Source of the DNA: Chromera velia
Lineage: Eukaryota > Sar > Chromeraceae
Direction of reading: 5' to 3'
Assembly (NCBI GenBank): GCA_018398765.1
Contig: JAHBMJ010004262.1
Coordinates: 5,001 to 69,000, forward strand
DNA: 64,000 bases
Positions 1 through 59,820 of this stretch are shown piece after piece. How positions within the stretch are numbered: the first letter of the stretch is position 1; the number at the start of each line of letters is the position of its first letter. The position numbers were made by a program, and so were the translations under genes. Under the pieces are notes generated by a model that ran no database searches, was not told the origin of the DNA, and was given only the letters and a program-made list of their open reading frames with translations.

Positions 1-150
1 GAGAGAGAGAGAGAGAGAGAGAAAGAATAGAAAGAAAGAAAGAAAGAAAGAAAGAAAATTAAGAAAAAAAGAAAGAAAGCAAAAAAGAAAAAAAGAAAGA
101 AAAAAAAAAAAAAGAAAGTTTTAGAAAGAAAAAAAGAAAGAAATTCAATG
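1..150. repeat. GA / GAAA purine microsatellite
   Basis: The window opens with about eleven GA units and continues as an irregular GAAA/AAAG-rich purine stretch to about position 150. No coding signal is seen. It abuts the 3' side of the minus-strand LINE, about 80 bases beyond its tail. Confidence 0.9.
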
Positions 151-11434: not shown

Positions 11435-11684
11435 CTTGGGCTGCTTCAACTGAGGTAGGGAAAGGTCTTTTCTTGTACGGTGGTTGGACCGAGCCGTTTC
11501 GCAGTTTGATTCTCTTCGTGTGCACCGTACGCGGGCATGGAGGGCCCCGGCAAAGCGAACTTGGCGAGAATCGCGTAAATTGTTGCATGCCGGGGCCGTC
11601 TCGATCTGTATTATTGTTTCTTTTTTTTTTTTCAACGCACCATTGCACGCATGCATGCACGATGATCGCACTGCATGGGAGACG
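11435..11684. promoter_or_regulatory. Divergent promoter between eS10 and a small gene
   Basis: This 250-bp interval separates two start codons on opposite strands. It holds an inverted pair GTACGGTG (about 11475) and CACCGTAC (about 11523), and a GCATGCATGC block at 11649-11658. TGCATGCA-type motifs are known ApiAP2 binding sites in Apicomplexa and are thought to be shared with chromerids; their role here is inferred. Confidence 0.45.
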
Positions 11685-31600: not shown

Positions 31601-32558
31601 CTATGAGTTTCTGCAATGAAGGAAGCACCCCAGCCCGCCACGGCTGCGGACAAAGGACAGGACAGACTAGAGCGCATCTATGAGACAGCGCAGGCCTGGG
31701 GACATTTTTTTTTTTTTTCTGCTTCCTCTGACCAACTGTATTAAGCGTCGAGTCTGCAGGAGATTGGTAATCCTGCTCCCTCCTTCCCGGCTTCCCTTCT
31801 GCACTGTCAGACTGAACGAAGCATTCCATACCCTCGATTCCAACAACTCCCCCCCAGATTTGACCAAAAAAATCTGTTCTTCACCGACCTGTCGAACTAC
31901 AGCACTCTTGTCCTGCAGAGCTTTCACTGCTGCCTTCCAGACCTCCCCTCCAACTGCCGGCCCCCCCGCCGCCCCTGCCTCCACGCACGTCGCCATTGCC
32001 GCCACTGCCCGGACCCGCAACGCAGTTTCCTGCACCTTCAGCTGCTTATTCACAGACACCAGGCACTCCTGCATGTACCCACCCAGAAGGGGGCCGTGGG
32101 GAACAAAGAGCTCGGCAATGACGTCCAGAGCCGACGCCCGAACTGCCGGGGGGAGCTTGGACGAGGACGCTGTTGCTGTTTGCAGAAGGGTGCCTGCAGT
32201 GGCGCTCAGTCTGTGCAGAGAGTCGCCTGCCGTGTAGAGACGGCTTAGCAGCGTCGCCACCCGTCTACAGAGCATACCCATGGGTGCTTGAAGGACGAGA
32301 CGGTTGAGCGTCTCCTCGACCGGCTGGAAAGAGGCCCGAGCCGTCTCCTTCGGAACCTTCCCCAACTCCAGAATCAGCTGAGACAGCCCTTCCGCCTTCG
32401 CCGCATTTGTCAGCTGTCCACTCTCCCCCTCGACCTGCATGCACAACGAAGAGAAAGTTGGGATGAGGAAGTAACGAGAGTGCCTTCAGCCGAACAAGCC
32501 GAAGAAATGGAAGACAGACCACAGCCTTCTGGAGTGTCTCCAGACTCGTGAGCACCAT
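17485..32558 (-). CDS. HEATR5 / LAA1 / SWEETIE-family HEAT-repeat protein
   Basis: There are 22 exons on the complement, listed 5' to 3': 32558-32520, 32434-31889, 31576-31385, 30899-30472, 30015-29921, 29574-29411, 29095-29024, 28797-28618, 28434-28142, 27752-27187, 26945-25951, 25739-24543, 24238-23639, 23436-22976, 22624-22246, 21942-21818, 21633-21547, 21478-21270, 21001-20764, 20551-19628, 19427-19040 and 18705-17485. All phases agree and total 3,132 residues. The N-terminus (CRRVATLLSRLYTAGDSL) and the block CGHSFALASLVVEVRGSRLG resemble HEATR5 sequences as I recall them. Other exons are helical repeats broken by Gly/Ser/Pro-rich inserts. Animal and yeast members are about 2,000 residues, so this one is long. 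The family binds AP-1 and serves endosome and trans-Golgi transport in the cytosol. Small exons could be missed, and the splices near 29.0-30.0 kb and 21.6 kb are the least certain. Confidence 0.85.
19584..19613. repeat. Homopolymer C run (30 bases)
   Basis: Thirty consecutive C on the plus strand lie within an intron of the HEATR5-family gene, just after a donor site (minus strand). Its true length may be mis-assembled. Confidence 0.9.
27979..28049. other. Assembly gap (71 N)
   Basis: A run of 71 N directly follows 14 C residues. It falls inside the predicted intron between HEATR5-family exons ending at 28142 and starting at 27752, which join in phase without it, so the gap probably hides no coding sequence. 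A missed exon cannot be excluded. Confidence 0.95.
30120..30185. repeat. GCAG/GACA tetranucleotide-like repeat
   Basis: A degenerate CAGG/CAGA repeat lies in an intron of the HEATR5-family gene, between exons 30899-30472 and 30015-29921. Confidence 0.7.
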
Positions 32559-33413: not shown

Positions 33414-34119
33414 ATGACTACCAGTGCGTCAGCAACAACACCGCTCACCTTCTCTCCGGAAGGAGGTAAGTGCAGATATGTTGACTCGGAGCACCCATTC
33501 GCGTCTTCTTGCTTTGGTGCACGATCCACAGTGCATGGCCCCCTCTTTCTCTGCAGCCCAACGCTTCATGGGAGAGGCAAGAGCATCTGATTTCGGAGGA
33601 GCACCAGAAGCAGGAGATGGGCTCAGTCTGACAGCAGGAGGGCAAGGCAGCCCGTCCTCTCTTCACATCCCGAGATCCCCAGACACGCTCAGTGGATGGT
33701 CCCAGCTGCAGACGCCTGCAGTTCCGACGACTCAAGCCAACAGTCCACAAGGTCAGCGGAGAGCTTGCTCGTCACTATCAATTTCAGGTTTCTGCGTCTG
33801 TGAAAGCGTTTGGAACAAGCTCGGGTAGGGAGAAGATAATGCAATACGGCCGGAGTTTTGCAGGGTGACGTGCAAAGGGTCAAGAGATGGAAGCGATGAC
33901 ACAGCAGGAACAAGAAATGAGAGAGAGGGCAAAGGGGGCCAGAGTGCACCGGAGAGAATGATGTAAGAATGACACTAGAGGCATCTTCCCATGCTGGACC
34001 CACTGCTCGTTCATCCTTTGTTTTCTGTTCACCTCTCTACCTTCTCTCCCTCTCTCGGCGATGCATGTTTATTCATTCAGATACACAGACCATACGCTCA
34101 CACACACACACACACACAC

Positions 34120-34155
<36 letters not shown>

Positions 34156-37100
34156 GCACGCGCGCAGAGAGGAGAGACAGATCCACGACTGCTTCACTGC
34201 AGGGAGCCCCATTGTTGATGGGCAGCTCCCTGGGGGTTCTGTGTCACCACCTACTCCGGCAGCGGGAGTGATTATGTCACCAGGGGCCCCGGCAGCGGGA
34301 GCCGCTGTCTCTCCAGGGACTGTGGCAGCAGGAGGAGCACAGGTTTCTGCAGGGCCTCTCACGGGATCGGGTGGGCATGGCGTCGCCCAGTCTTTTCCGA
34401 CAGTGGATGAAGTTTCCCCTGCCCCCCCATCAGCCCTGCCGACCGTACCCCTTTCGCCAGGGCTCCTGCAGATCCAGGGACAAGGGCCGCCCATGGGTTC
34501 GCCTGTCACACCAACAGCGCCCTCTCCCACTCACAATCCACCAGGCCAGCAACCCCCCTTTCCCGCTCCCCCCAACGCATACCCTCCCCCCGTCAGGCTC
34601 TCTGGTGTGGAGCATGGAGGCACAAAAATGGATACAGACCAAGCGAACACTCCATCAGATACGAACACGCAAGCACCGACTTCAGTTCCCCTCAACGGCT
34701 CCCAAACACTTACAGGATCTCCTCGCACAAACGTCCCTCCAAACGGGCAGACACCACAAGTTCCTCCGCCTCCCGTTTCCCCCACGATGTCTTCGCAGGC
34801 CATCGGAGGAGGGCCTGCGCCTGCCGTCCCGCCTTCGATGCCGTCACACGTGATTGGAGGAGTCCCTGCCCCTGCCGTCCCGCCTTCGATGCCTTCGCAG
34901 GCCTTCGGAGGAGGGCCTGCCCCTGCCGTCCCGCCATCGATGCCTTCGCAGGCCATCGGAGGAGTCCCTGCCCCTGCCGTCCCGCCTTCGATGCCTTCGC
35001 AGGCCATCGGAGGAGGGCCTGCCCCTGCCGTCCCGCCTTCGATGCCTTCGCAGGCCATCGGAGGAGTCCCTGCGCCTGCCGTCCCGCCATCGATGCCTTC
35101 GCAAGCCATCGGAGGAGGGCCTGCCCCTGCCGTCCCGCCATCGATGCCTTCGCAGGCCTTGGGAGGAGGGCCTGCCCCTTCAGTCCCGCCTTCGATGCCT
35201 TCGCAGGCCATCGGAGGAGGGCCTGCCCCTGCCGTCCCGCCTTCGATGCCTTCGCAGGCCATCGGAGGAGGGCCTGCCCCTGCCGTCCCGCCTTCGATGC
35301 CTTCGCAGGCCATGGGAGGAGGGCCTGCCCCTGCCGTCCCGCCTTCGATGCCTTCGCAGGCCATCGGAGGAGTCCCTGCGCCTGCCGTCCCGCCTTCGAT
35401 GCCGTCACACGTGATTGGGGGAGTCCCTGCCCCTGCCGTCCCGCCTTCGATGCCTTCGCAGACGATCGGAGGAGTCCCTGCCCCTGCCGTCCGGCCTTCG
35501 ATGCCGTCACACGTGATTGGAGGAGTCCCTGCCCCTTCCGTCCCGCCTTCGATGCCTTCGCAGGCCTTGGGAGGAGGGCCTGCCCCTGCCGTCCCGCCTT
35601 CGATGCCTTCGCAGGCCATGGGAGGAGTCCCTGCCCCTTCCGTCCCGCCTTCGATGCCTTCGCAGGCCATCGGAGGAGTCCCTGCCCCTTCCGTCCCGCC
35701 TTCGATGCCTTCGCAGGCCATCGGAGGAGGGCCTGCCCCTGCTGTCCCGCCTTCGATACCTTCGCAGGCCATCGGAGGAGGGCCTGCCCCTTCCGTCCCG
35801 CCTTCGATGCCGTCACACGTGATTGGAGGAGTCCCTGCCCTTGCCGTCCCGCCTTCGATGCCGTCACACGTGATTGGAGGAGTCCCTGCCCCTTCCGTCC
35901 CGCCTTCGATGCCGTCACACGTGATTGGAGGAGTCCCTGCCCCTGCCGTCCTGCCATCGATGCCTTCGCAGGCCATCGGAGGAGGGCCTGCCCCTTCCGT
36001 CCCGCCTTCGATGCCTTCGCAGGCCATCGGAGGAGGGCCTGCCCCTGCCGTCCCGCCTTCGATGCCGTCACACGTGATTGGAGGAGGGCCTGCCCCTGCC
36101 GTCCCGCCTTCGATGCCTTCGCAGGCCATCGGAGGAGGGCCTGCCCCTGCCGTCCCGCCTTCGATGCCATCACACGTGATTGGAGGAGGGCCTGCCCCTG
36201 CCGTCCCGCCATCGATGCCTTCGCAGGCCTTGGGAGGAGGGCCTGCCCCTTCCGTCCCGCCTTCGATGCCTTCGCAGGCCATCGGAGGAGGGCCTGCCCC
36301 TGCCGTCCCGCCTTCGATGCCGTCACACGTGATTGGAGGAGTCCCTGCCCCTTCCGTCCCGCCTTCGATGCCTTCGCAGGCCATCGGAGGAGTCCCTGCC
36401 CCTGCCGTCCCGCCTTCGATGCCTTCGCAGGCCATCGGAGGCGTCCCTGTTCCTACCATTCCGTTCCCACCCGTTTCTCACTCGATTGGAGTACCGTCGG
36501 TTCCGCTGACAAGCTCCACTGTAGCCCAGGCAGGCAGTCCGGCTGCCCGACAGTTCATGGATGAAACTGTGAACCAGAGTGTTGTTGGCTTGCCAGAAGC
36601 CAGTCCGGCATCTGCGTCAGCACTCTCTGTCTCGCCGGCGCATCTCTCACAGATGATAGGAGGGGTGCCAGCGCCCTCTCTGCCCCCTCAAGCGTCGCAG
36701 GTAATAGGGGGGTTGCCGGCGCCTTCCATGCCTTCACCGCAAGCGTCGCAGGTGATAGGAGGGGTGCCAGCGCCCTCTCTGCCTCCTCAAGCATCGCAGG
36801 TAATAGGGGGGTTGCCAGCGCCCTCCATGCCTCCACCGCAAGCGTCGCAGGTGATAGGTGGGGTGCCAGCGCCCTCTCTGCCTCCTCAAGCGTCGCAGGT
36901 GATAGGCGGGTTGCCAGCGCCCTCCATGCCTCCACCGCAAGCGTCGCAGGTGATAGGTGGGGTGCCAGCGCCCTCTCTGCCTCCACCGCAAGTGTCGCAG
37001 GTAATAGGGGGGGTGCCAGCACCGTCTCTGCCTGCTCCTCAAGCGTCGCAGCTGATAGGAGGGTTGCCAGCGCCCCCTATGCATTCACCGCAAGCGTCAC

Positions 37101-40100
37101 AGGTGATAGGGGGGGTGCCAGCACCGTCTCTGCCTGCTCCTCAAGCGTCGCAGGTGATAGGGGGGGTGCCAGCACCGTCTCTTCCTGCTCCTCAGGCGTC
37201 GCAGGTGATAGGAGAGGGGCCAGCGCCCGCTGTCTCTGCAGCTCAACCTTCACAGGTGATGGGAGGAGTACCAGTTGGAGCTGCTCCTTCCACGCCACCT
37301 GCCCATGCTTCGCATGTTTCTGGAGTCGTGCCAACGCCAACGTCCGCTTTCTTCCCCTCAGGCGTTGGTGAACCCTCGGCGCCAGTGGCTTCTCAGAGGG
37401 TATCAGAGGGGGTGAGTCGACAGGCAGATCGCGGCCTGACTTCTTTGGCAAGCATGCTTCAGCGGACGGGGTCGGGTATAGGACCGAAGAGCCTTCCAGG
37501 TGCACCCCCCCCCTCCCGGTCTAATACAGTGCGGTTTGCAGATCCGCCAGCAGCGTCTCTTTCCGGTGTTGCTGCTGCTGGAAAGCCGGGGGTGTGTGTG
37601 GGTGCACAGCAGCAGAACTTGAATGAGTGGCTCCTGAGGGACACCTCGCCTGCCCCTCGTGAATGGAAGGCGCCTGCTTCAGGTACCTCCCAACTCCCCG
37701 AAGTTCCCGCTCCCGCCCCTCCAGATGGCGGGCAGCAGGCTGCAGCACAGCCCTTTGTTTCCCTTGCGGCTGCGGCTGCTGCAGCGGTTGCGAGTTCATG
37801 CGCAGCCCAGGCAGGGAGCCCGAGTGTGGGGGGTAAATTCGTTGACGAGGTCGTGAACCAGAGTGCGGGGCCACCCATGCAGGCGAGCCCTGTTGCCGCT
37901 TCCCTGTCCACCCAGCAGCCCGCAGTAGTCCACCAGAGTCACGCTGGACCCACACAGCTGGCCTCTGTGCACCAACAACAGCAGACCCAGCAGGCCCTCG
38001 CTCAGTCCCATCATTCCACTATGACGCAGCTGCCAATCCGACAGGTCCAACTCCCCTTGCCTCCACAGACCGTACCTCAACAACAACCCCACAACCAAAT
38101 GTACCTCCAACCCCACCCGTCGCAAGCACAACAGGCATATTCTCAAGCGCACCCGGCTGCGTCTCAGGTGCAACAGGCATATTCTCCAGCTCACCAAACA
38201 GCATTGCAACAGTCGTATGCACCATCGCACGCCATGCCCCAGCCGCACCCACAAGCTCACTTTCCACCCAGGCCTCCTCCCTCTCACCCGCAACACCCGC
38301 CTGTCCACTCCCAAGCACCCCTTCCTGCATCCCAAGAGGCTCAAGCGGACTCCTCACCCCGGAGCCGGAGACCCTCGTCTGTCGCCCCTCCGTTGGCCCC
38401 TTTCCTTCCCGAAACTTCTCCGTCAAGGCGACAGTCTCACGCTTCCACAGTACCTTCTGCCGTCGCCCGACGCCCCTCCTCAACTTCCGTCGCGTCCCCG
38501 CGTCGCCCTTCATCACCAACAAAGAACCGCCCCCCCCTTGTTTCTCCAACAGATTCTGCACTCGCCAAGGGTCCCAAAAAGGGGCAAGCGGGTGGGCTGT
38601 GGTTGCCTCAGGAGGCAGAGGCGCAACTGCGCAGACTGGCCTCTCTGCTGGACGCAGCATCCGGGGCGATTCGGAGCCTGACGCCTGACAGAGAGAGGCC
38701 GATGCGGCCGACTACAGAGCTCTCCCGGAGCAAGACTCCTCCACAGCCTGGTTGGCGGGACGAGGCTGTACTTGGAGTGGAAAGCCAAAAGGACAGTCAG
38801 GGCGAGAAGGTGGGAGTCCGGGCCGCTGCAACTTCAGGGGCTCAAGTGAGGCAGGGGGGAAATCCACAGGGAGACCGATCTATCCCGAAAACGGTGCTTG
38901 ACCGAGCGGTTAGTCGAGTTCCATTCTCCCTGTCCCTGTCCGTCCTTCTTGCAGTCACTGCAGTCTTCGGGATCGTTTCTGTCCCAGATTTTTCTTCGCT
39001 TTGCTTCCCTTTCCTTTCCTCTTGTGTACTCTGTTGCCTACAGACAATCCCCTTTTTCTTTCTATCCGCTAATCAAATGATAGATAGGGAAGAGCAGGAG
39101 AGAGAGAAAAGTTCTGCTTTTTGTCGTTTCGTTTCTTTGCATTTTTATCTTTTTCTTCGATTGGTCATGATTGTGCAGGAGGGTCTACAGGTCGGATTGG
39201 CAGACTATCGTTTCTCGATTCTGTCGGACAATGCACAGAAAGAGGAGAGAGTTCGGGGGGCTCCCCACTCAAGCAATTTGGAACAAAGAATGCAAAGGGG
39301 TGGGACTGCTGTGAGTGTAGCGAAAGATGCGAGCCGAACACCTCTTGAAGGTTTGATGGAAGGGCGTGCAACGTTGGAAGACGATCGACGACGCAGACTT
39401 GGCTTCAAGTCAGCAGCAGTAGGGCTAGCGGTTGGTCTCCTGGATCCCCACCATTCAGTTCTCACGACTCACCCAGTTGAGGGTGAGGTTGAGAGTGCAG
39501 CGAGGGGGCCAGAGGAGGGTATTCCTGAGGGTGGAAGGTTAGAGAGAAGCTTGGTGAGAAGAATCAGGACATTGGAATCGGACCTGGGCGGGGTTGGGGG
39601 GACTGAGGTGCTTGGCCCTTCGCCTGGAAGTCTGGAGAGAAGAGTAGAGGTGGGAAGGCATCCCACAATTGTACAAGAGCAATCACATATGCCTGTACAG
39701 AGACAACGAACGGCAGAGTGGGGGAGAGGTTTGGAAGGCAGTCGTGCCCTGTCCTTGGAAGAAAGTCTCCGAACGGGAGTCCCGGGGGGGTATGGACCGG
39801 CTGTAGGCAGAGAGGTAGCAGAGAAGGCCGTGAGGGTAGAGTCTCAGGGGGAACTGGAGTGGCGAGTTCGGGGAGGGGGCTCTCTCTCTCGAGCTCACAC
39901 TCGAACAGATGCTGTAGGCGTTCTGCTTCCGATGGAAGAAGTGGTGGGGGAACGTCAGACTGTTCGTGGAAGGACGAATGAGGGGGAAGCAGATACGTGC
40001 GGGCAGCATGTTGAGTCTGCAGCCGGTAGTCGGTCCCTCTACCACGCAGATTTGGAGAGACAGATTGAAGAGACCTCCGCATTTGTAAAGTCTCAAGGAA

Positions 40101-40658
40101 GGGGGGCAAGTGGCAAAGTGCAAGCCCCCCCTTCACCTGTGTATATAGAAAAGATGGGAACGGCGGGAAGGATGGAGAGAGAGGTTCAGTCAGGAGAATC
40201 GCGTCTGGTTCCCATGCAGGTGCATCGGAGGGGAGAGGAAGAAGCTGAGTCCTATCTCGGAGCTCAGCCTTACTATTCTTACTTCGAAGAGGCGAACCCC
40301 TCCATCGAGGGGCGTTTGAGGAATTCCCTGCCGTCGCAGAGTGGGAGACTGAGAGAGACGGAGACGGAAAGGGACCGAGAGAGAGAAGGACCCCATCGCC
40401 TAGGAGGCCGCCTTCCCATTCGCACAGGAGTCGAGGAACTGGAAGCTCCTCGAAGGTCAGTCAGTCTGTCAATCTGTCTGTCAGTCTCCTAGTCTGTCAG
40501 TCTGTCTGTCAGTCAGTCTGCCAATCTGTCAGTCTGCTAGTCTGTCAGTCTATCAGTCAGTCTGTCGGTCAGTCTGTCGGTCTATCACTAGGTCAGGTAG
40601 TCAGAACAAGCATGTGCGGATAAGTCGATGCACCAGACAGGAAAATGACAAGGAGGCT

Positions 40659-44600: not shown

Positions 44601-47600
44601 ATGCACTGCGGATATGAAATGCGGAGTTTGTGGTGCCTTTTGCTCGCAGTCTCCATGCTGTGTTGCCTGTTCTGCGATATCCCAGGTAGGTCTGCTGCGT
44701 CCAGCGTGCATTGTGTTGTGGATGTAGAGGGACATTTGCTTTACCTGTGTAGCATGGGTGTAAGGCTCTGCTCAGTTTGGACATTGGTTCTCGGGATACT
44801 TGTATGCGGAAAAGCTTTCTTTCAAACTTGCTTCTACATATATATATATATATATATATATGCATGTTTGAAGCTGTCAGTTTTCAAACGAGCCTAGAAA
44901 GGTTTCACCACGCATGTGTTTGCATCTGCACCCTTCTTGTATTCTTCATTCAAGTGACATGGCTGACCGTCACAGTCCGTCCATCAGATGAAAGTGCATG
45001 CAGTGCTTGCTTCATTTGCATGCATGGTTTTGGGGGCACAATCGTCCCGAGCTCATCACACAAGACTGCATGGAGATCAGACCAATTAAAAAGTGAAGCA
45101 GTGAGGTGCATTGGTTCATGTATGTCTCATTGGGCTGCTTTATTATGATGAGACTTTAGCTCTTCTATCTCACTTTCCCCCAAAATGTCCGCAGGGGCAC
45201 ACGGTGACATGAGCGTACTGGGACTGCACCACTCCCTGCTTCTCAGCAAGTCAGGAGGTGTGTATGCGAGTGGAAGGAACGACTTTGGTCAGTTGGGGGT
45301 CGGTGACACGGTGCACAGGAGAGATTTCACACGCATCTCTGGCATTTGCAACGCGGTGTCGGCCTGCGTTGGACTGCGGCACTCTCTGGTGCTGGAGGAG
45401 AACGGAGAAGTCAAGGCGTTCGGGTCCAATGACGCAGGGCAGCTGGGGGTGGGGGAGTCGGTGGATCAGCTGGAGACGCCTCGGACGGTCACGGTGGAGG
45501 GTGCATCGTCTCTTGTGGGGGTTGCCTGCGGGCGTCGTTTCAGGTGGGTGAAGGGGTGTCGGTCTGTCTGATTAGAATTCTGTAGGTGCATTGCTGTGTT
45601 GGTCTGTGAGTCTGTGGATGGGTTTTTCTCATTTCGAATGAGAGAGTGAAGGAGAGAGGTGGTTTATGTGTCTGTTTTGCAATGTAGCTGAAGAAGGGAC
45701 AATGTGCACAACGGATACACACACACTCTCATTCCCTGATGCAATGCAGTATGGTGTGGGACACGGAAGGTAGATTGTTTGGCTCGGGCACCAATGTGCT
45801 CGGTCAGATGGGAGACGGCACCTCGGGAGACGGCACAGAGAAGTTTCGTTTCGCACAAGTCACAGAGGGAGGCCTCTCGTCGGAAAGGGTGATTTGGGCA
45901 ACAGCAGGAAGCACCCATGTTTTGGCTTTGTGCGCTTCTGGGAGTGTGTTTGCTTGGGGGTCGAATTTGAATGGGCAGTTGGGACTGGGGGACAATGGTC
46001 CTGACGTGCCTTTGAGTGCGACTCCCGTAGAAATGTCGTCCCCTTACGGCCCCATCATAGTGGCTGAATTGTCAGCAGGAGAGTCGACGTCATTCGTCAG
46101 AGCTGCAAATGGGGAACTGTATGGGTGGGGGTCCGATGAGTTTGGGCAGATGTGTCAGGGGACAACGGCTTACGATAGGAAATCCCCTGTGTTGATTGCG
46201 ACAGGGGTGATGCAGGCGGTCGGTGGGCGTGACCATGTTCTGTTTCAAAAATCTGACGGCACCCTTTTCGGGTGCGGGCGCAATCACGTGGGGCAGTTGG
46301 GGCTCAGTGCTTCGACGACGTTTATCTCCTCTCAGACGGTCATTCCAATTCCTGGGGGGTCGTCGGTGACGTCTCTGATGAAGTCGGGACCTCTGGGGGA
46401 CGCCTCCATCGTTCTCACTCCCTCTCCGGTTGTCTTCGGACAGAATGAGTACGGGAAATTAGGGACGGGGATGAACGCGACTGAGTTCACGCCTCGGGCT
46501 TTGAAAGGTCAGCATTGAAACCGGGAAGGGAAGAGTAGCAAGCCAATTGGTGATTGGCAGTGTGAAAATTCACCCAGTCAGAACATTTCAGGCGAGAATC
46601 TGTCGACACACGAGCGTTCGAGAGTAACTGTTTCGAAAAGGGAAAATGCGAAGCTAGTCAGTCATCACTGCACCAATCGTCACCCGGAGCCGAGTTATCC
46701 CGTCTGCCCTTGTTTGTTTTGATCAGATCTCTGTTGTCTGCTGCAGGCATTGGTAGCGACACCTGCACCTCCGTGCCTTCTTCCTGTGCCCCCAACGCTG
46801 AGACAAATTCGAGTGCCTTAGGGGTGCGGCACTCTCTCCTTCTGAGCAAGACGGGAAGCGTGTATGCGAGTGGAAGGAACGACTTCGGTCAGTTAGGCTC
46901 AGGCGATGAGGTCAGTAGCAATGTGTTCAAGAGAGTTCTTGGCGTCTGCAATGCTGTGTCTGCCTGTGCGGGGTTTCGGCACTCTCTGGTGCTGGAGGAG
47001 AACGGAGAAGTCAAGGCGTTCGGGTCCAATGACGCAGGGCAGCTGGGGGTAGGGGAGTCAGTGGATCAGCTGGAGACGCCTCGGACGGTCACGGTGGAGG
47101 GTGCATCGTCTCTTGTGGGGGTTGCCTGCGGGCATCGATTCAGGTGGGTGGGCCCCTCTCTGGGTACGTGGGCGTGTGATGAATGCTGCGTCGTCATTTT
47201 GTTTTACTTACATACAGACAGAGTGTTTGGATTCTTTTTTCTCAGGCAGAAGGATTGGATCGACACACAGACAGACGGACGGGCACAAAGATAGAGGGAC
47301 TCTTTGAAGGACAGGCAGGCGTGTGAGCTGCTTTTTGGTTGAGGCTTTCAATGTGGTCTTCTTTTCACTTGCGCCTTTTTCCTCCGTGGTCGTACCTCTT
47401 GTTGGCTGCTCTCACTGCGTTGTGCGTGAATAGCTGGCGAACAAAAGGGGCCCATGCTAGAACGATAGGATGACGCACGGTAGCGGGGCCATTTGTTTGT
47501 GCACTTCTCTACCAGGGCTTTTGATTTTTTTCTTTTGATATTGGCTGTGAGTGCATGCAGTCTGGTATGGGACTCTGAAGGCAGAGTGTTCAGCACTGGG

Positions 47601-49424
47601 GAGAACTCTGTGGGGCAGCTCGGAAACGGCACCTGGGGGTCTGGGACGGAGAAGTCGTCCTTCATGAGGGTGACGGCAGGGGGGTTGTCGGCAGAAAGAG
47701 TTGTAGCAGCAGCCACAGGAAGCGATCACGCGCTGGTTCTTTGCGATTCTGGGAAACTTTTTTCGTGGGGGGGGAACGACCATGGGCAGTTGGGACATGG
47801 GGACACAACAGATAGGTCAGTTCCCACTGAAATGACCTCGGCGTCTTCAGCAGCGAGGATCTCTGAGATTTCTGTGGGGTCCTTGTCTTCCTTGGTGAGG
47901 ACTGAGGACGGGGAGGTATATGGGTGGGGGTGGGACACTCACGGGCAGATGTGCCAGAGGTCGACGAGCATCTCGAGAACGAGCCCGGTGCTCATTGCAA
48001 CTGGGGTCACGGAAATGGTGGGGGGGCGTAGTCATACTTTATTGAAAGTAACTAACGGGACAGTTTTCGGGTGTGGGCGCAATCACGTGGGGCAGTTGGG
48101 GCTCGGTGCTTCGACGACGTTTGTCTCCTCTCCGACGGTCATTCCAATTCCTGGGGAGTCGTCGGTGACGTCTCTGATGAAGTCGGGACCTCTGGGGGAC
48201 GCTTCCATTGTTCTCACTCCCTCTCCGGTTGTCTTCGGACAGAATGAAGACGGACAGTTGGGCACAGGAGCAAACAGTGCTGAGTACACACCGAAAGCTC
48301 TGGCAGGTGCGGTGAACTAGAAGAGGAGAAAGGAAGGACAGAGTACTCATTTTTCTTTTGGCATCTCAGATAGCATATGGTTTCGTCGGTACTGATGTCA
48401 TGCTGAAAAGGATGTCATGGGGTGAGATTTGAAACTGCACTGCGCTGGCGTGCCATTTGATTCCAGGCCTGAAACCTCAGTTGGTTTGAAGAAAAGGGGA
48501 ACAAACAGATTTGCAAGAAGGAAGGGGGAATCTAGAGATCTATTTTGGTGATTGAAAGCGTTTCTATGGAATTAAAGGGGTCTATGGACTTCTTCAGTGA
48601 AACGAAAGGAAGCAACAAATCGCCATCGCCCGTTGAGACATGTAAAGCATTCGCTAGATGACTCTTTTCTCCGCCTCTCTCTTCTTCTCTGTCTTTACTG
48701 GTCTGTCTGCATGTGGCCCTTTTTACGTGCTTGCATGTGGCCCTTTCGTTTGACTGGCTGCCCCTCTGCCTTTCTGCTTCCCTCCCCCATCTTCCCTCCT
48801 CTCTCTCTCTCCTTTCGTGATCTGTCTGTTTCTATCCACACATTTCTCCATTTGTGCAGGAATCGAGCAGACTGTCTGTGCCCCTGTCAACGAGACGTGT
48901 AGTGCCAACGCCAGGTGTCTCCAGGGATACGAGGTGTCTCAGTGCATTTGCAACATGGGTTTTGTCGGCACGGGCAGTCTTTGTGGTCAGTCACTAGGCC
49001 CAAACATGACAAATCTCAAAATAAAATTTATGTCTGCCTCAGAGTGGGGCAGTGGGTGGGGAATGGAGAAGTCGGCACAAAAGGCCGTTGGTGCTGCAGA
49101 GGTGCAAGGCTGCGGAGTGCCATGCAGACCTCACTTTACAGCAAAAAGTGTGGATGATTACACGTACGCAGCACTCTCTGACTATTGATAAAATGCCTGT
49201 GCAGTTGGCTGTCCGCTTCCGCCCCTAACGGTTGGCACCGATGAACGGGAAAACTTTGCAACGCTCTCATATAACGCGGACGTCTTCAACGTGTACAGAT
49301 CGACCAATGACCTGAACGGCCAGGTTCGGATCAGCTCTGTCCCCTTCTCTGGCATGGGACTGCACGTCGAGACGGGGCCCTTTGTGTGTCTCACCTCCGT
49401 CACTGTTGAAGGTGTGTGTGCCTG

Positions 49425-49456
<32 letters not shown>

Positions 49457-49642
49457 CCCGCTCTTTCGATTGATTTGTAAACCATCAAACAACCTGCAGT
49501 TTTCTTTCTGGCAGTCTGGGTCTCTGCTCCGCCCTGGTCTTGCTCGATGGAGTTTTAATTGGGTCACGGCGTTTCGCAGAAGTGCAGATTTGGGATTTTT
49601 GTTTCTTCCAGCCCACAACTGGAGTTCTCTCCCCCCTCCCTG

Positions 49643-49677
<35 letters not shown>

Positions 49678-52600
49678 GTGTGTGTGTGTTTGTGTCCCTG
49701 AGACACTGTTTGAATGCAGATAGGGAGGCCCCTCTTCTCGTCTGCCCCGGCCAACAGACTTTGAACAAGACCAGAGACCAATTTCCCCTCGCATCCTACC
49801 CTGGGTTGGTGGACATAAGGGACAATGTTGACCGGAACCTGCCCCACACATTCAGCCTGCAGAACAACACCAGACTGGAGGGAACAGTGACCACAGTGGT
49901 GGCCAGAGCGACCGACAGCAACGGAAACACGGGCTCGTGCACCTTCATCATCGTTGTGGACGAATGCCCTGCCAACTCGATCCGAGAGACTGAGACTGCT
50001 CCATGTACTTGCAAGTAAGTCGATCACAAGGTCTTGCTTATTCGACACTTCGTTTCAGGAACACTAAGTGCGTCTCCATGCGGTCGCCCGTCAATCAGAA
50101 ACAAGTGCGTCTAGTGATCAAGCCGGACGGATGTCTCGGTGTGACGACTTCTCTGACATGGTAGTCAAACGAATAAAAAACGTCCTTCTGACCTTTGTGA
50201 ACACAAACAGGAAATCAGCAGTGCTGACACCTTGCACTCATGCCTCGGTTGCGTCCGCAGATGCGTTCGTTGTTCTGCAACTTACTGAATGGTTTTGCTC
50301 TTCGTCCTTCCGTACGTTAAATCTTTTTGGCTCCGTGACTGCATGTGACGATGGGCCTGATTGATTGCAGCGCAGGATTCTTTCGGGAGTCTGAAAATCC
50401 GGTCATCTGCAGAGAGTGCGGGCCGAATAGGGTCAGCCCGGCAGGGAGCGTGCATCCGCGGGAGTGCATATGCGAGAAGGACTTCTACTTCGTTCGCGAC
50501 AGTTCCTTTGAAACTTCGGGGGGGATCAGTGGGGAGGAAAAGGAGCGACGAGCTTTCGTCAACGGCATCTGTCAGAAATGTCCAGGCAACAGCTTCAGTG
50601 AACAGGGGAGCATACACCCTTCTTCATGTCGGTGCACCGAGGGATTTTACTTTGTCCCTGAGCGCCTTTCTGGCACAGGCATCGAGCTTGGAACAGAGGA
50701 AGAGAAATGGGAAGCGTTTGCACGAGGCAGCTGCCAAGCGTGTCCCGAAAACGCTGTGTGTGACGGAAATATCACCATCCTCACAGAGCTTCTGCCGGCT
50801 TTCACCAATCTTTCCCGCCGCTTACAAGCGCCCTCCTCTCTTCCAGGAGACGTTCTAAATCCCCCGGGGCTGCCCCTCTCGCAGCAGCAAGTTTTCGAGT
50901 TGCAGACGCACACACGGCCGAGACCAAGAGACGGGCATTCCCTCACGAAGAGATACCCAGACGCCAGGGTACTCGAGTGTCCGATTGTCGAGACGTGCTT
51001 CGAAGATCAGCAGTGGACTTACCAGATGGAGGAACCGGGAACAAAGTGCAGAGAGGGAATGACAGGGGTAGGTGGCACCCTGGGTGGGTGGGCATGTGAA
51101 AGAGATTGCTCTCTCTCGTCTCTTGAATCTAAAGTCTCGCCTCCATGTCGTAGAACTTTCCTTCTCCAGCCCCTCGTCTGTCATTCTCCTTGCCTTCCTC
51201 GGTTCCTGTATGTTTGCTTTTCTGATCTGCTCTTTCTTCCTCAATCTCTGATTGTCTGCCGACAGGGAGAAGGATCCTTGGCGGAGCCCCTTTGTGTTTC
51301 TTCTGCCTCCTTTCTTTCTCAATCTGCGGCTCTCTTGATGATCCAATTTGATTCTGAATTCTGCAGCCCCTCTGTAGCTTTTTTTTTTTTTTTTGGTAAA
51401 TTCTGCAGCCTCTCTGTAGCGAGTGCGCTCCTGGATGGCGATCCGTCTACCGTGACCTTCGCTGCTTCCGCTGCTCGCCCTACATGCTGGTGAATATCAT
51501 TCTGCTCGTTGCGGCGTTCGTTTGTATGGGATTTGTGGTTGCCTTCTACACGCGGGAACACAAGGGCGCCCTTGCGGACGAAGTGATGCCAACCTTCAAG
51601 GTGCTCATCAAGACGCTCTTCTTCCTGATCACCGCGCCATCTACCCTGAGTGCATTCCCAGTGCAGTCGGTGCTCAGCAGGTACATGGGAACGGGGCTGT
51701 CCTTCTTACAGCATACAGTGGGAACGGAGGGGGTTTCCTTTCCTTTACAAGGACAATCGTTCCGAGCCTGTTGACCAACATTTCAAAGTGTTGCATTTTC
51801 TCGTGGTTCTCTTCTTCAAACGAGACCGATAGAGAAGCGGTAAATGGCCCTGCCGTGAGGGCAATGGAGAGAAAACAGTAGAGACCGGGGACTGGGCATT
51901 GAGTCAGAGCCGTCCCACCTGGCCGGTGTTTTTCTTTCAACTCAAAAAGCGTTTTTTTTTTACTATTATTAATGGGACCGGCCTCACGAGTTCGTGAAAG
52001 ATCGGAGACTTTCAGTAGAAGTTCATTTGAACATTATCTCTAGTGAAAAAACAAACAAACATGCAAAGAGCGTGTCCCAATCAACGGATGGTTGGCGAAA
52101 ACAGTTGTATTGAAACATTCTTCACCGTTTTTCTTCCCACAAAGTTAGTTTCCCCCCTTTATGCATTCCTTTTCACCATAGGAGCAGAAAATGGCGTCTA
52201 CGCTAGGCATTGGGGCTCTGCTGTTGTGCGTGAATGCTTGTTCATGTGCATGTGTGTATGTACTGCAGGTACAGTGAGGAAGAAGTTGAAAGCACGCTGC
52301 AGAATGTTGACGTGGCCGCCGTGATGAAAGTCGTACTCGTTCAGCTTCCCTCTGTCGGTCAGTTCTTCTCCGTCCGTTGTTTTCTCGTCGAAAGTTTGGG
52401 GTCCCTCGGACAGGAGCAGGAGTCGGCCTTCTACTTCTCCACCATTCTCACTCGGGCCCTCATCCCCTTCCTCCTCTGGCTGTTCATCATGGCAGTCTTG
52501 CTGGTCGTGGGCCTCCTTCTGGTGGCGGTGCGCTCGTTCAGGAAGGTTCCTCGAGGAGAACTGGAGAGGCAAAGAACTCACAGGGTGAGTAGGTGGAAGG

Positions 52601-55519
52601 GTGGATTTTTCTTTCTTCCCTTCTTTTGGGGTTTTGCAGATTAAAGAAAGGCTAGATTTACTCACGTTTTATTTTCTGGGTGGAAAGAAATTCGGATGGA
52701 CCACACCTCTCGTGAGTGGTCGGGTGAGTCGATGGGCAATGAACGTATTCATCGGCATCGCTTTCCTTACAGATGGTGTTTGCTGGATGGACTGATGAGT
52801 GAACTTGATGTATGGATCGATGGATGGATGCAGACTGTAATGTGGAGTCAGTTGGGGGACGTTGAGAGGTCCCGAGAGATTCGGAGACTTCGAGAGAGGG
52901 CGGACGAGGCCGACTGGGGGATTCTGCACTTGGGGGTGGTCAGGGAGCAAATGGATGAATTTCGAAGGGACAGGTATGCACTGGATGGAAGCAACGGCGC
53001 GCCAGGGAGAATGTCAAGCTTTGGAAGTGAGATCAACGAAAGAGAGACCGAGACAGAGACAGAAACACAACAAGAGAGGAGAAAAGCGAGCAAAAAGAAA
53101 AAAGAGAAGAAGAGAAGAACAAAAGAGAGCGAGACTGATCGTGATGGTCCACTGCTGACCAAATGGATCCGTCTCTGGCTTTCTGTGGTTCCTCCTGTCT
53201 TCCACGCAAGTGCGACGGTGTTCGTTGTCCTGTATCTCATCAGCTACGAACAGGTGCTGGAGACTCTCTACGACGCTCTGGCATGCGACTCCATTGGGGG
53301 TATGGAGGCTCCCAGATTCCTCAGCGCTCCCTCGATTAAGTGCGACTCTGCCAACGGACTCTGGGAGCTGACCCTTTTGTTGCTGGTCTTCCTGTACTGC
53401 GCTGGGATCCCTCTTGGACTTCTCACAGTGGCAGTAGTTTGGAGACTGCACAGAGAGAGAGTTCGACTGAGGCAGCCGGAAGGGTTGGTAGGAGAAGGTC
53501 AGGCGGTGCTTGCAGGGCACAGATGGCCTCGGGTGTCGGATGCGGCATTGACAGACAGCATGAGGAGGGAGAGGCTGCTTCAGGTGTTCTCATTTGCACT
53601 CGGGGGGTACAGAGACGAATTTTTCTTTTGGGAAGTGGTGATCATCTTGGAGAGACTCCTGACGACATTCATCGTCTCGTACACATACAGAATGACGGGG
53701 AACTCGAGAGCTGCTCTGCTCTTCCTTCTCATCATCGCAATCGTGTTCCTCAGCCTGCAGGCGGCCTTCAAACCATTTCAGGTGCATGGGGAGTGGGGAA
53801 GAGTCGGTGGGTGGAGGGGAAGAAAAGGGAGGGCAGAGAAAAGCCATCGAACCATCCTTTCCACTTCTGTGTTTCCTTTGAGGAAAGACTTGTGCAGGCT
53901 CGTGTTTCTCCTTCTTTCATTTTGCACAACGCACACTGGGAAGTGCATAGTCCGCACTGTTTCTTCTGGCCATACATGAAAATTGAAGGGAGATTTCTGT
54001 GGCTCGTTTGCGCCTGCAGGAGAGGGGCAGGGACATCATGAACACTGCCGCATACTGGTCGCAGTCTGCATGGGTCCTCACTCTGGCTCTCTACTCAGTC
54101 AGTCAGTGATTCAGCCTCCTCCGTTGGGGTGCTCTGGCTAAATCCACATGCATGAAAAACCTCTCTCCATTCTTTCTTTCCCTTCTTCAATTGTCCTGTC
54201 TGTTTCGCTATTTGTCCCGTCGTTTTGTCTGATTGTACACTTATATGCTTTTGTCTTTGTTTCTTTCTTTATGTCTTTCTTTGTTTCTTTCTTTCTTACT
54301 TCTCATCTTGTTGGTTCTGTCCATGAAGGGAAGGGGGGAAAAGAGAAAACACATGCTCTGTCAGTCTGTCTGCCTGCCTACCTGCTTACCCTGCCCTCCC
54401 TTCTCTCTGTCTGTGTATCAGTCTATCAGTCTGTCTGTCTTTCTTCCTGTAGATGCAGTGGATCTGTCGGTCTCTGTTCTTACACGAATCAAAGAGAAAG
54501 TAGGCAAGGCCTCTTCGCTCATCCATCCTACGCATCGTTGAGTATGTGCAGTCTCTGCAAGCACGCACGTGTGTGTATGCTTGGCTGAGAGAGAGAGCGT
54601 GAATGCATGCAGGTCCCGGTGATTTTCCCTGTGAGCTTGAGTGTGGATCTTCTGTTCATTTTTTTGGCCCTCCTTCCTGTGACATCCGCAGTTGCGTGGT
54701 CAGTCACGAGAGAGAATGCTTGTTCGGTGAGCGTTTGAGCATTTGGCAGACAGATTGATTAAGTGACTGATCTTGCAAATCGTGATCCTCTCAGTCACCG
54801 TGCTTGATTTTATCTTGCTCATGGAGTCTTTCTGTTCTCCAGAAGAAAGTGTGAGCTTGATTATCCCTCGTTTGAGTCCTCCCTCTGTTTTTTTCGTCCA
54901 CACAGAAACACGAAATTTCAAAACTCCTCTTCGAAATTGATGTCTTCTTTTGCTTTTGTTCCACGGAGGCAGGACGGCGCTTCAGATTCTCCGTGAGGGA
55001 CTCGTGTACTACTCCTTCTCTCTGCACCAGGAGGAGGAGGAGGTCCCTCGGTCGGCCTGCTGCTGGAGAGTGAAAACAGTCGTTCGAAGCTTGCGGGAGA
55101 GGGCCCGCTTGGCACTTTTGTGGGCAGTACAAACGGCTGAGAGCAGAAGAGTCAGAGTCGCTGTGGTCATCTCTTCCTTCGCAGAGCTGCCTAAGAGCCC
55201 CCAGAGTCGAAACCTAACGATGACAGTCAGGAGGACTCGGGGTCAGTGTTTCGAATTTTTTCGACTTCTTCTTCTGAGGAACGTAGTAAAGACAGACAAA
55301 TTATTGCAGTCATTCACGCACTCCCTCCACGGTCATCAGCTGTCGGGACTCTCACAATCAGAAAGCTTGTACCCTTGTCGAACCCTTCAGATCACAAGCT
55401 TCGCGATTCCTCCAGCCTTGCTGTTTTCCTTTTCTCTGTCTAGATGCAAGTTCACTGATCGATGCAGTCTGATTGATCGTTGGTGGGCTCTGCTCTCTGC
55501 GTTCCTCTCTCTCTCCATG

Positions 55520-55590
<71 letters not shown>

Positions 55591-58000
55591 CTAAGTTTTG
55601 AGGTTTGAGAGAGAAAGAGAGCGACCGTACGTATGTGTGCAGACGCCCCTCCTATCGATTTTTCCAGACTGAAATCGCCAAAAGACCGGGTGCTTGCTGC
55701 AACAGGGGATCTGTGGCGGCAGAAGCTCTCACAGTCGCTCGATGCTCAAAAGCGCAGAATCGAAGGATGGATTACCAGGCGGGCCCCAATTGGCGTGCGT
55801 CATTCCTTTCCGGCTTCTGATATTCCTGCCATCTTGGGACGCGGGCAGTTTGACAACTTTGTCATACGGCTGGCCACCCTGCTGTCCCCACGGACAGGCA
55901 ACTGTGAGTGGCTTCGACGGTGGGTTCGCCAAGCCGAGTTTGAGTTTGAGTGGCTTCCTCTTGCAATGGCAGTTCTCCAACCGGACTGGATGAGCCTCGA
56001 AGAAGAGGAAGAAGAGAAAGAGGCAGGGGACGAAGAGTCCAAACGGAACCCGTGTTGCCCTTGCCTGTTCGGGCACTCGAACCACCAGAAGAGGAAGAAT
56101 AGCGCCGATGAGGACCTCCCAGGGACACACGCAGACGGGGAAGGAGGAGGTGTAGCCATCAAATCTTCCCGAGGAGGCCGGGTGGGGGGAAGCAGGAGGG
56201 ACTGTCGGAGGTCCTCATCGGTCCCCTCTCTTGAAAGTGGGTCCCGGAATTTGGGAGTCAGGGTGAGGGAGGGAGAAAAAGAACAGACTGAAGACGAGGA
56301 CCCTGAACCGCCTTTTGTCAGTGAGACTGAAGCTCTCACAGGCAGACGCTCACGGGAAAGAAAAGAGGGAACAGGGAGGGGTTCTGTGAGGGACACGCAC
56401 GGGGTGCCGTGGAGGATTGATTTCAGTCAGGAGGACCCACAGGAGGAGGGTGTAGGCAGTCCAGACAGTGTAGAACCTTATGGACTAAGTAGAAGCCCAC
56501 CTCAGGTAGAGTTGGAAGAAGAACACAGAGGTACCCCTGAGATCTCCTCTTCTGCTTCAGCTGCAGACGCAGAGGAGGGAGAGGGACTAGTCGAAGATGG
56601 AGACGAGGAGAGAAGTGGAAGGGACGAATCCAATAGAATGTCGTCTGGGGCACGCGCGCCGCCCCAGGCCCAGACCCAAGGCGCCCCCTTTCCCCTTCCC
56701 TCAGGAGACCAACTTGAAGACCCTCCAGATGAAACTCCCACCAAGAACCGATCGCGCTCCTTGATTCAGAATTCGAGGTCTCTGCTCTCTGCCGTTGCTG
56801 CAGACTTAGGGAGAAAAGAGACTGAGCACACTTCCCCGCTTAGCTCCAGACAGGCACAGCCAGGGGAGCAAGCGATGAAGAAAACAGGCTTGCAGTCGGG
56901 GCACAAAGACATCCATGTCACAACACAGTCTGCGAGAGGAGACGAAGAGTCCCAGAGAGAGACGGCACAGGAGTCTCCCCCTCCCTCTCAGAGACCTGCT
57001 CAGTTCTTCAACTCACCCCATCCAGACTTCCACACAGACACCCCCCCTGCCTGGCCTGGGAGTGAGTTTGCAGGCAGAGAAGAGGAAGAGTACTCGAGTG
57101 ACTCAGCAGAGTCCTTGAAGGAAGCAGACAGCGAACGGATCGCTCTCACCAGTCGGCACAAAAAGGTTTCCCCTTCTCCCGCTTCGCAGAGAGCAGGAGG
57201 GGGCCCTGCGTCTTCGCGCAGCAACAAAGCAGAATCACCTCTACAAAGACCTGTCAGCAGCAGAGAATCTAGACAGAGAGCGAGACTGCGCGGCCCTTCC
57301 CACTCCTTCTCCCTCGGCCCACACCGGGAGAGGGAGACGGGAACGGCAACAAAGGACGTCGTACTTCCCTTGTCTGACTTTGTGTGGGACCTTCTCCAAT
57401 CTCTGGAACAGAAAGAAGTGCCCCCCTGCTCAGAGACGCAGAACCAGTCAGGCAAAGGGGAAGAAAGCCCTTTTGGCTCTCCCTCTTCCTCCGCCTCTCT
57501 CTCTCCTCTCCGTCCCCTCTCTGCTGAGCAGCTGTCCTTGTTTGTGTCGCTGGGGGACGAACTAGACTCGCCCGCTCTCTCGGAACTCAGCCTGAGACAG
57601 CAGGCAGTGACAGCGTCGGACAGACCTGAGGAGAGGGACGGCACGGTGGGGGAAGAGGGGGGGGTGGCGTCTCCTACCGCTTCTTCTTCCTGCAGGTGTG
57701 AGGTCGAAGTGGAGCAACTGGTCAGAGACCTCCGCTTGACTGAGGGCCTTCCTGTTCAGACGCTTCTATGGGTGAGTGGGGTAGGTTGGGGGCTGTACGA
57801 ATGAGAAAGCGACCGGAGAAAAAGGAACAAATATCAAAAGAAAACATCTTAAATAATCAATCATCCACCGAGAATCAAAGAGAGAGAGAGAGAGAGAGAC
57901 GCGCGCAGCGGCCGAGTTTCTCTGGCAGCCAAAAGACAATTGGGATCGACAAATCGAGCTTCAAATTTGTGTCCTCTTTTTGTTTCTTTCGGTGGTCTGA
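44601..58000 (+). CDS. Receptor-like membrane protein: two RCC1 propellers, EGF, HYR, Cys-rich repeats, multi-TM
   Basis: The 17 exons are 44601-44685, 45195-45543, 45750-46507, 46747-47143, 47561-48306, 48860-48985, 49205-49411, 49720-50014, 50371-51067, 51409-51680, 52269-52584, 52834-53781, 54020-54097, 54613-54698, 54973-55241, 55643-57771 and 57929-58000. All are in phase and give 2,609 residues. A signal peptide (RSLWCLLLAVSMLCCLFC) comes first. Two seven-bladed RCC1 propellers follow (about 29-397 and 398-778; blades like YASGRNDFGQLGVGD). Next are a six-cysteine EGF (779-820), a linker, a HYR domain (890-987, ending GSCTFIIVVDECP) and ephrin-receptor/GCC2-GCC3-like cysteine repeats (988-1245). 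Membrane helices start at 1246 (MLVNIILLVAAFVCMGFVV); there are about eight, including the protist motif FFFWEVVIILERLLTTFIVS. The cytosolic tail is acidic and Ser-rich. The last exon is the least sure. An ATG at 44619 is an alternative start. Confidence 0.85.
44838..44862. repeat. AT dinucleotide microsatellite
   Basis: A (TA)n run of about 24 bases in the first intron of the RCC1 receptor gene. Confidence 0.9.
49424..49454. repeat. CT microsatellite
   Basis: A (CT)n run just downstream of the donor at 49412 in the RCC1 receptor gene. A second CT/GT run lies at about 49646-49694 in the same intron. Confidence 0.9.
55508..55590. repeat. CT then GT microsatellite
   Basis: (CT)n followed by (GT)n, located before the acceptor of the long cytosolic-tail exon of the RCC1 receptor gene. 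Confidence 0.9.
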
Positions 58001-59189: not shown

Positions 59190-59820
59190 CAGAATGATAA
59201 GAAGTAACCCATAAGAAGAGAGAGGGTTTTCCATTCCCCTCTGTGTATCTCAGGAAAAGAACGTTCATGGTGATTCTGAAAAGTGTGAAAGAAAAGAGAA
59301 GTGAACTCTCGATTTCCTTTTCCTTTTTCTTCTCTGTTTGAAAGTTTCTTTTCTGCAACTCTCTCTGTTACCTCACCCTTTTTGAGTCGGACAGAACAAC
59401 AGGAAGCAACCCACAAGAAGAGAGAGGGTCTTCCATGATTCCTTTCTGTGTGTCTCGGGAAAAGAATGTTCTTGGTTACTCAGAAAAGTATGAAAGAAAA
59501 CAGAAGAGTACTTCTCTCTTTTTCTCACTTAGTCTCAATTCTTCGTTCTTTTTTCTCGCTCTGGTTGAAGTTTCCTTTCTTGTTACTCTCTTTGACAGTG
59601 TTACTTCATCTTTCTGAGTCAGATAGAATGATAAGAAGCAACCCATAAGAAGAGAGCGCGCTTTACCGTTCCCCTTTGCGCGTCTCGGGAAAAGAAACGT
59701 TCTTGGTTACTCTGAAAAGTATAAAATAAACGTGTTCTCTCTCTCACTTGGTCTTAATCTCTTCTCTCAATTCTTTCTCTCCCGTTCTCTCCTTTTCACT
59801 CTTGCGTTTCAGCACTAAAA
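59190..59820. repeat. Tandem repeat of about 205-230 bp, nearly three copies
   Basis: Copies start at about 59190, 59395 and 59626 with AAGAAGYAACCCAYAAGAAG and continue through CTCGGGAAAAGAA and GGTTACTCTGAAAAGT. The units differ by substitutions and small length changes. No coding function is seen. Confidence 0.75.

Follow-up and report, generated by a model that had tools for sequence, protein, structure and literature searches.

A putative CRMP-like cell-surface receptor of Chromera velia with two RCC1 propellers

Chromera velia is a photosynthetic alga related to the malaria parasites. Its contig JAHBMJ010004262.1 (assembly GCA_018398765.1) was analysed over positions 5,001 to 69,000 of the forward strand, a stretch of 64,000 nucleotides referred to below as the window. 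A gene at window positions 44601-57804 (+) is predicted to encode a protein of 2601 amino acids (aa) with two RCC1 propellers, EGF, HYR and cysteine-rich regions, a multi-pass membrane core and a long C-terminal tail. The protein is probably a CRMP-like cell-surface receptor, in which the propellers would serve as a ligand-binding head that was doubled by an ancestral duplication and kept alike by intragenic gene conversion. An initial annotation had described a multi-pass, receptor-like protein with paired propellers outside the cell. This picture is supported, with a topology that is predicted. Because the architecture recurs in paralogues, the observation is now stronger than when it was first stated.

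The two propellers

Pfam finds RCC1 in 14 stretches of the protein (E-value 1.4e-89; 295 bits against a cut-off of 21.7), and WD40_RLD matches at 5.5e-227. The blades partition into seven at aa 34-385 and seven at aa 419-766, which bears out the earlier count of seven in exons 2-3 and seven in exons 4-5. With a blade profile, the 14 blades score 37-57 bits, the weakest being the last in each propeller (37.4 and 39.8 bits). The best score in 200 shuffled ectodomains is 7.9 bits among the matches listed. As this profile was made from the window's own blades, the independent test is the Pfam one. With a profile of paralogue blades, 13 of the 14 are recovered.

Among solved structures, 35 distinct PDB sequences match the propellers at an E-value of 0.001 or less. 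The best are UVR8 (4.6e-51), HERC2 (2.5e-37) and RCC1 (4.5e-27), together with HERC1 and RCC-type proteins. UVR8, HERC2 and RCC1 are cytosolic or nuclear proteins. They have RCC1 repeats in common with the window protein, where the propellers instead lie behind a signal-peptide-like sequence and are joined to EGF and HYR. Of the signal peptide in the initial annotation, what stands is a hydrophobic stretch (aa 9-27) after the first methionine, called without a dedicated signal-peptide predictor.

One gene and its paralogues

The gene model has 16 exons, delimited by the open frame and by GT-AG borders. All 15 introns are GT-AG, the sole stop is at the end, and an in-frame stop at 44577 precedes the start ATG at 44601. 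Since a GTGAGT near 57772 could act as an extra donor, the final residues and the stop are uncertain. Guanine plus cytosine make up 0.62 of the third codon positions and 0.47 of the intron sequence. Nonsynonymous divergence (dN) is 0.24 and synonymous divergence (dS) 0.79 between propellers 1 and 2; for the membrane exon against the paralogue on contig C930 they are 0.40 and 1.62 (dN/dS about 0.25), with 102, 77 and 150 differences at codon positions 1, 2 and 3. In both comparisons dN is below dS, which indicates selection at the protein level. The intron phases at the 5' end are 1,2,1,2,1,1,1. Thus exons 2-3, exons 4-5, exon 6 and exon 7 are each symmetric 1-1 modules, the usual mark of modules open to duplication or shuffling.

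Genome-wide, RCC1 matches were found on 46 of the 4040 contigs, a lower bound as 150 of 381 candidates were scored. Matches to HYR, the cysteine region or the transmembrane (TM) core, together called the chassis here, lie on 53 contigs. Neither set was selected for co-occurrence. Both occur together on 14 contigs, the window's included; were all contigs equivalent, about 0.6 would be expected (46 x 53 / 4040). The other 32 RCC1 contigs have no chassis match. On 14 of 14 a chassis match is downstream on the RCC1 strand, and on 11 it is within 6 kb. On C164, C1852 and C57 the chassis lies at 12-16 kb and may belong to separate genes. TM matches are present in seven of the 11 close loci (the window, C864, C3222, C3287, C3568, C3899 and C292).

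On C3222, a single uninterrupted open reading frame of 926 aa contains RCC1 (2.4e-14), EGF_3 (5.4e-11, over the cut-off), HYR (1.6e-12) and the cysteine region. Because the frame is uninterrupted, this linkage needs no splicing assumption. Within the window, the cysteine module continues into the first hydrophobic segment inside exon 10. The initial annotation had named transcripts that assign the RCC1 and the membrane exons to separate genes as a finding that would overturn it. The strand and order on the 14 contigs, the C3222 frame and the join in exon 10 oppose such a separation, and the two sets of exons appear to form one gene.

Ten further loci were read for module order: nine RCC1 loci picked for carrying both RCC1 and chassis (those other than C3048, C164, C1852 and C57), plus C930. 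The orders come from queries of the window and C3222, and blade counts other than seven are lower bounds. Exactly 7+7 blades, with EGF between and then HYR and the cysteine region (Cys), are found in three paralogues: 7-EGF-7-HYR-Cys on C3568 and C3287, and EGF-7-EGF-7-HYR-Cys on C3899. The orders elsewhere are 7-EGF-6-HYR-Cys (C128), 7-EGF-5-HYR-Cys (C4005), 3-EGF-6-EGF-HYR-Cys (C3222, where the stretch seems to begin inside the first propeller) and 5-EGFx3-HYR-Cys-TM (C864). C3576 and C292 read 6-HYR-Cys, a single propeller over the stretch taken, and C930 reads EGF-HYR-Cys, with zero blades. RCC1 is present in nine of the ten loci, and the suggestion of a family of this lineage is supported.

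Two other RCC1 loci were recorded. One is an open frame of 832 aa (G000:C3643:17458-18633, - strand) that has many RCC1 matches and no chassis match on its contig. At 28800-32520 of locus L043 (C3899), the RCC1 gene shifts frame or hits stops between some blades, through small introns, assembly errors or decay of the copy.

From the propellers to the tail

The window Pfam scan spanned aa 1-2042, and the tail was scanned separately. The EGF and HYR regions that had been named are present, but in the window both fall below their Pfam cut-offs (EGF_3: E-value 7.9e-4, 20 bits against 28.5; HYR: 0.0084, 16.9 bits against 21.7). The HYR region aligns with those of the paralogues, which are over the cut-off in C930, C864 and C3222 and under it in C3287; the EGF of C3222 is over it as well. 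The window EGF precedes HYR and is not directly at the membrane. The ephrin-receptor-like cysteine repeats that had been proposed are less certain. Pfam Ephrin_rec_like (PF07699) gives no window match at an E-value of 1 or less, and DUF7630 is the sole match to such a cysteine module, below its cut-off (24.1 bits against 27). Two CxxC...CxC repeats, at aa 1001 and 1055, do resemble the Ephrin_rec_like class by eye.

The membrane region contains ten hydrophobic segments, two of them weak (9-10 counted), rather than the roughly eight helices first described. The core exon aligns across five paralogues, with invariant residues that include GY and FxWE. No relative of the core with a solved structure was found at an E-value of 1 or less with the single sequence, and a membrane-exon profile gave two matches only (0.27 and 0.9). 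The window scan found no Pfam channel family and a weak SURF4 match (0.038, under the cut-off). No kinase domain was found by Pfam in the window protein, tail exon included.

The tail had been described as acidic and 700 residues long. It is indeed long, about 800 aa from the last segment, but only mildly acidic (130 D/E against 104 K/R; 16.2% D/E, 18.1% in the last 600 or so). Near its start, 78 aa align with C930 at 43.6%, and exon 16 has no Pfam domain.

Duplication and conversion of the propellers

Judged from the sequences, the repeated unit is a propeller plus an EGF domain. The inter-propeller EGF of the window is reduced to a stump, TCTSVPSSCAPNA. The acceptor site in blade 3 falls at the identical serine codon in 11 of 11 propellers (both window copies and nine paralogue propellers from five loci). 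This survey left out the second C128 propeller, and donors were checked in the window only.

The two window propellers are 69% identical (252/365), and the identity is unevenly spread. Two tracts are nearly identical in their bases (Table 1), while dS is high or saturated in other propeller segments and the introns resemble each other no more than by chance. Near-identical patches join both propellers in six of six genes tested (C3222 and C864 left out), the best in each gene extending over 115-290 bp at 95.9-98.3%. They are clearest in the window, the only locus for which shuffles and dS were computed. Such patches suggest gene conversion.

Identity between blades of one gene (65-80%) exceeds every value between genes (31-63%). 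A topology that groups all first propellers is rejected (difference in log-likelihood 386; approximately unbiased test, p 8.7e-7). In the propeller tree, which was built blade by blade because joined pieces from C3287 and C3899 lose their frame, the pairs from the window (support 100), C3899 (99) and C3287 (split 95) are sisters. The C3568 pair is not; a long window branch joins its second propeller, with support of 46. On this evidence an ancestral propeller-EGF duplication with later intragenic gene conversion is most likely.

Kinship to CRMPs

CRMPs, the cysteine repeat modular proteins, are secretory factors common to ciliates and apicomplexans (PMC9670195). They are described as having EGF-like and ephrin-receptor-like (ERC) domains, nine TM helices and, in Toxoplasma, tails of 565 and 478 aa (PMC9815656). 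Their repertoire in Chromera velia is highly expanded, for which environmental sensing has been proposed (PMC9815656), and a related Plasmodium family has been described as receptors or channels (PMC3083381).

Like Toxoplasma CRMPa/b, Plasmodium CRMP1-4 and the Tetrahymena CRMPs, the window protein combines EGF-like and cysteine-rich modules with a multi-pass C-terminal core and varied N-terminal modules (PMC9815656, PMC9670195, PMC3083381). An EGF-like domain accompanies the multi-pass core (below the cut-off in the window, above it in C3222), and the C-terminal tail is long in both. The ten hydrophobic segments, two weak, compare with nine helices in CRMPs. The domains listed in the legend of Figure 1 of PMC9815656 do not include RCC1; no ERC match at an E-value of 1 or less was found in the window, and no Kringle match at 1e-3 or less in the genome.

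A second link comes from within the genome. A core profile, grown over 30 TM loci that were all found with the window's own core, matches contig C2089 in two colinear frames on the same strand (3.9e-9 and 1.3e-8; reversed sequences gave 0.23 or worse). The first of the two frames contains a DUF7630 match and is preceded, about 0.5 kb upstream, by an Ephrin_rec_like domain over its Pfam cut-off. The Ephrin_rec_like, DUF7630 and core frames probably belong to one gene. On this profile evidence, the membrane core of the RCC1 family is common to C2089, a locus with CRMP-type make-up. PF07699 was found on none of the 14 contigs with RCC1 and chassis. Lacking an ERC match, and linked to CRMPs by architecture and one bridge within the same genome, the window gene is best called CRMP-like and not a proven CRMP.

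C2089 (L050) also contains, at 3-5018 (-), a 1672-aa open frame that starts in the membrane core and has no Pfam match at an E-value of 0.01 or less. Twelve C-type lectin matches lie on contigs outside the 53 with chassis. A search for relatives in viral contigs gave ten pattern matches, none confirmed.

Precedents for extracellular RCC1 propellers

BLIP-II of Streptomyces is a secreted, single soluble bacterial domain. It is a seven-bladed propeller and served with RCC1 as a template for models of CR4 (PMC4617170). In CRINKLY4 receptor kinases, seven RCC1-related repeats form a propeller ectodomain (PMC4617170), and wheat CR4 has also been described with the phrase extracellular RCC1. CRINKLY4 and ACR4 resemble the window protein in their signal peptide, their outside RCC1-related propeller and their extracellular cysteine-rich, TNFR-like module. 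They have, however, one propeller, a single membrane pass, a kinase domain and C(X10)CWG repeats (PMC4617170), whereas the window protein has two propellers and a multi-pass core, and no kinase was found in it. No cysteine pair 11 residues apart, the C(X10)CWG spacing, occurs within its propellers. Membership of the CR4 family was rejected on these two grounds, the missing kinase and the missing spacing. Nd6p of Paramecium and apicomplexans has RCC1-like repeats and acts in alveolate exocytosis, as CRMPs do (PMC9815656). It is a separate protein, which the text of PMC9815656, as far as available, does not describe as part of a CRMP.

The proposal that the architecture had not been described therefore needs qualification. 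An outside RCC1-type propeller has a precedent in CRINKLY4 (PMC4617170) and the chassis resembles CRMPs (PMC9815656), but the combination of two propellers with a multi-pass protein was found in no report among the listings and text excerpts covered; figures, supplements (with the CRMP sequences of PMC9815656) and most subscription papers lay outside this search. The available text of PMC9159632 and PMC7951837 contains nothing on this architecture; the main text on the Chromera velia assembly (PMC4501334) mentions neither RCC1 nor CRMP, and the whole file contains crmp once. The features that appear to be new are an RCC1 head carried by a CRMP-like chassis, the propeller-EGF duplication and the recurrent patches of near-identity between propellers.

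Proposed mechanism and alternatives

In the proposed mechanism, everything ahead of the first membrane helix would lie outside the cell. The propellers would form the variable, ligand-binding head, carried by a CRMP-like chassis that consists of a cysteine-repeat stalk, a multi-pass core and a long cytosolic tail. A ligand or contact at the propellers may then be relayed through the core to the tail. An ancestral propeller-EGF duplication would have supplied the second propeller, and intragenic conversion would keep the two alike. Two such propellers could form a pseudo-symmetric pair that engages a single ligand or a repeated surface. The analogy to CRMPs suggests that regulated exocytosis may be the result; this is the least certain step.

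Alternatively, the protein may be an adhesin or surface-coat anchor, whose propellers bind wall, matrix or neighbouring cells and whose core holds it in place without signalling. The tail exon without a Pfam domain agrees with this, as do HYR, EGF and cysteine repeats, which are frequent in adhesion proteins. Conservation of the membrane exon between paralogues and of the 78 tail residues, however, exceeds what a bare anchor would seem to need, and this alternative is considered unlikely while keeping an appreciable chance. Clearly less probable is a channel or transporter whose ectodomain acts as a sensor, for instance a mechanosensitive one. The number of hydrophobic segments and a long charged loop would suit it, and PMC3083381, as far as its text is available, allows receptors or channels for the Plasmodium family; against it stand the lack of a match to a solved channel or transporter or to a Pfam channel family, and the weakness of the SURF4 match. 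It is scarcely credible that the protein is a UVR8-like UV-B photoreceptor placed on a membrane protein. UVR8 does head the list of PDB matches, but its GWRHT-type tryptophan motif, visible in the UVR8 rows, is absent from the window, and the candidate was rejected for that reason.

The likeness of the propellers could also come from independent duplications in each gene rather than from conversion. Higher identity within than between genes would be expected, and the propellers of C128 and C3568 are 80-91% alike over long stretches. The window tracts, by contrast, lie amid high or saturated dS with introns at chance level (a background known from the window only), and both copies have the common blade-3 acceptor in the window pair and in four paralogue pairs; independent duplication is therefore rated rather improbable. 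That two neighbouring genes, for an RCC1 protein and a membrane protein, were wrongly joined is very improbable. The model does come from DNA alone, and C128, C4005, C3576 and C3048, four of the 11 close loci, have no TM match at an E-value of 1e-3 or less, but chassis and RCC1 keep strand and order on all 14 contigs, C3222 joins its modules in one frame, and the frame stays open across 15 introns.

The four loci without a TM match also count against a receptor of the proposed kind, and so do several other observations. Ten membrane segments would place the tail outside the cell. C930, the closest paralogue by its core, has no blade in about 8 kb upstream of HYR, and on C3287 a further chassis set lies some 20 kb upstream of the RCC1 matches. 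No convincing signal exon was seen in four paralogue loci, each scanned over a short stretch only. The propellers show no enrichment in glycosylation sequons. The predicted fold of exon 5 alone, from a two-row alignment with exon 3, is of low confidence (mean local confidence, pLDDT, 46; predicted template-modelling score, pTM, 0.51) and shows three three-strand groups. The contrast between patches and background is weaker in C128 and C3568. Concerning the kinship to CRMPs, the core profile does not match C56, the other of two bridge loci; DUF7630 on C2089 scores 27.8 bits in one scan and 22.8 in another, against a cut-off of 27; and no Kringle was found in the genome at an E-value of 1e-3 or less, although control genomes likewise gave no match.

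Features of the window

Table 1. Exons and conversion-like tracts of the RCC1 gene (window positions).
Feature	Position	Strand	Remarks
Exon 1	44601-44685	+	Start codon and signal-peptide-like N-terminus (hydrophobic aa 9-27)
Exon 2	45195-45543	+	RCC1 propeller 1, blades 1, 2 and beginning of 3
Exon 3	45750-46507	+	RCC1 propeller 1, remainder of blade 3 through blade 7
Linker, aa 398-420	46747-46814	+	Start of exon 4; EGF stump (C404, C411, NA); EGF match there in five paralogues
Exon 4 (46747-47143), propeller part	46809-47143	+	RCC1 propeller 2, blades 1, 2 and beginning of 3
Exon 5	47561-48306	+	RCC1 propeller 2, remainder of blade 3 through blade 7
Exon 6	48860-48985	+	EGF domain, aa 779-820, phase 1-1 module
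Exons 7-8 (49205-49411, 49720-50014)	49205-50014	+	HYR-type region, aa 821-987
Exon 9	50371-51067	+	Cysteine-rich repeats, aa 988-1220; DUF7630-like module begins
Exon 10	51409-51680	+	DUF7630-like module ends; hydrophobic segments 1-2 in the same exon
Exons 11-14 (52269-52584, 52834-53781, 54020-54097, 54613-54726)	52269-54726	+	Remaining hydrophobic segments; long charged loop
Exons 15-16 (54986-55241, 55643-57804)	54986-57804	+	C-terminal tail, end uncertain
Conversion-like tract	45377-45533	+	155/157 bases identical to 46977-47133; 0/2000 shuffles as good
Conversion-like tract	46265-46448	+	177/184 bases identical to 48064-48247; 0/2000 shuffles as good

Elsewhere in the window, a Plectin/S10 domain (8e-36) at 10937-11698 (-) probably marks a ribosomal protein S10 gene. 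A weak RIMC1 match at 12242-13306 (-) is over the cut-off (1.5e-7), with no single stretch passing alone. A 2176-aa open frame at 33962-40492 (+) contains numerous repeats rich in Pro and Ala, of the type MPSQAIGGGPAPAVPPS, and has no Pfam match at an E-value of 0.01 or less. Downstream of the RCC1 gene, at 59191-59730, are two short units in three diverged copies, spaced 202-232 bp.

Significance

Signalling toward rhoptry discharge has been called still enigmatic (PMC9815656). A broader scenario, offered as speculation and thought rather unlikely as a whole, would have CRMP-like contact receptors gain an RCC1 head that doubled as propeller-EGF, with conversion holding both propellers alike since they act as a single pseudo-symmetric clamp. 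Such receptors would be contact sensors for extrusome discharge, and the invasion trigger of parasites a reduced remnant of them. RCC1, which forms the head, is a ligand-binding domain that is foldable and has been studied well, and may give a handle on the search for CRMP ligands. In addition, paired propellers with recurrent patches would offer a clean example of two folded domains in one polypeptide evolving in concert.

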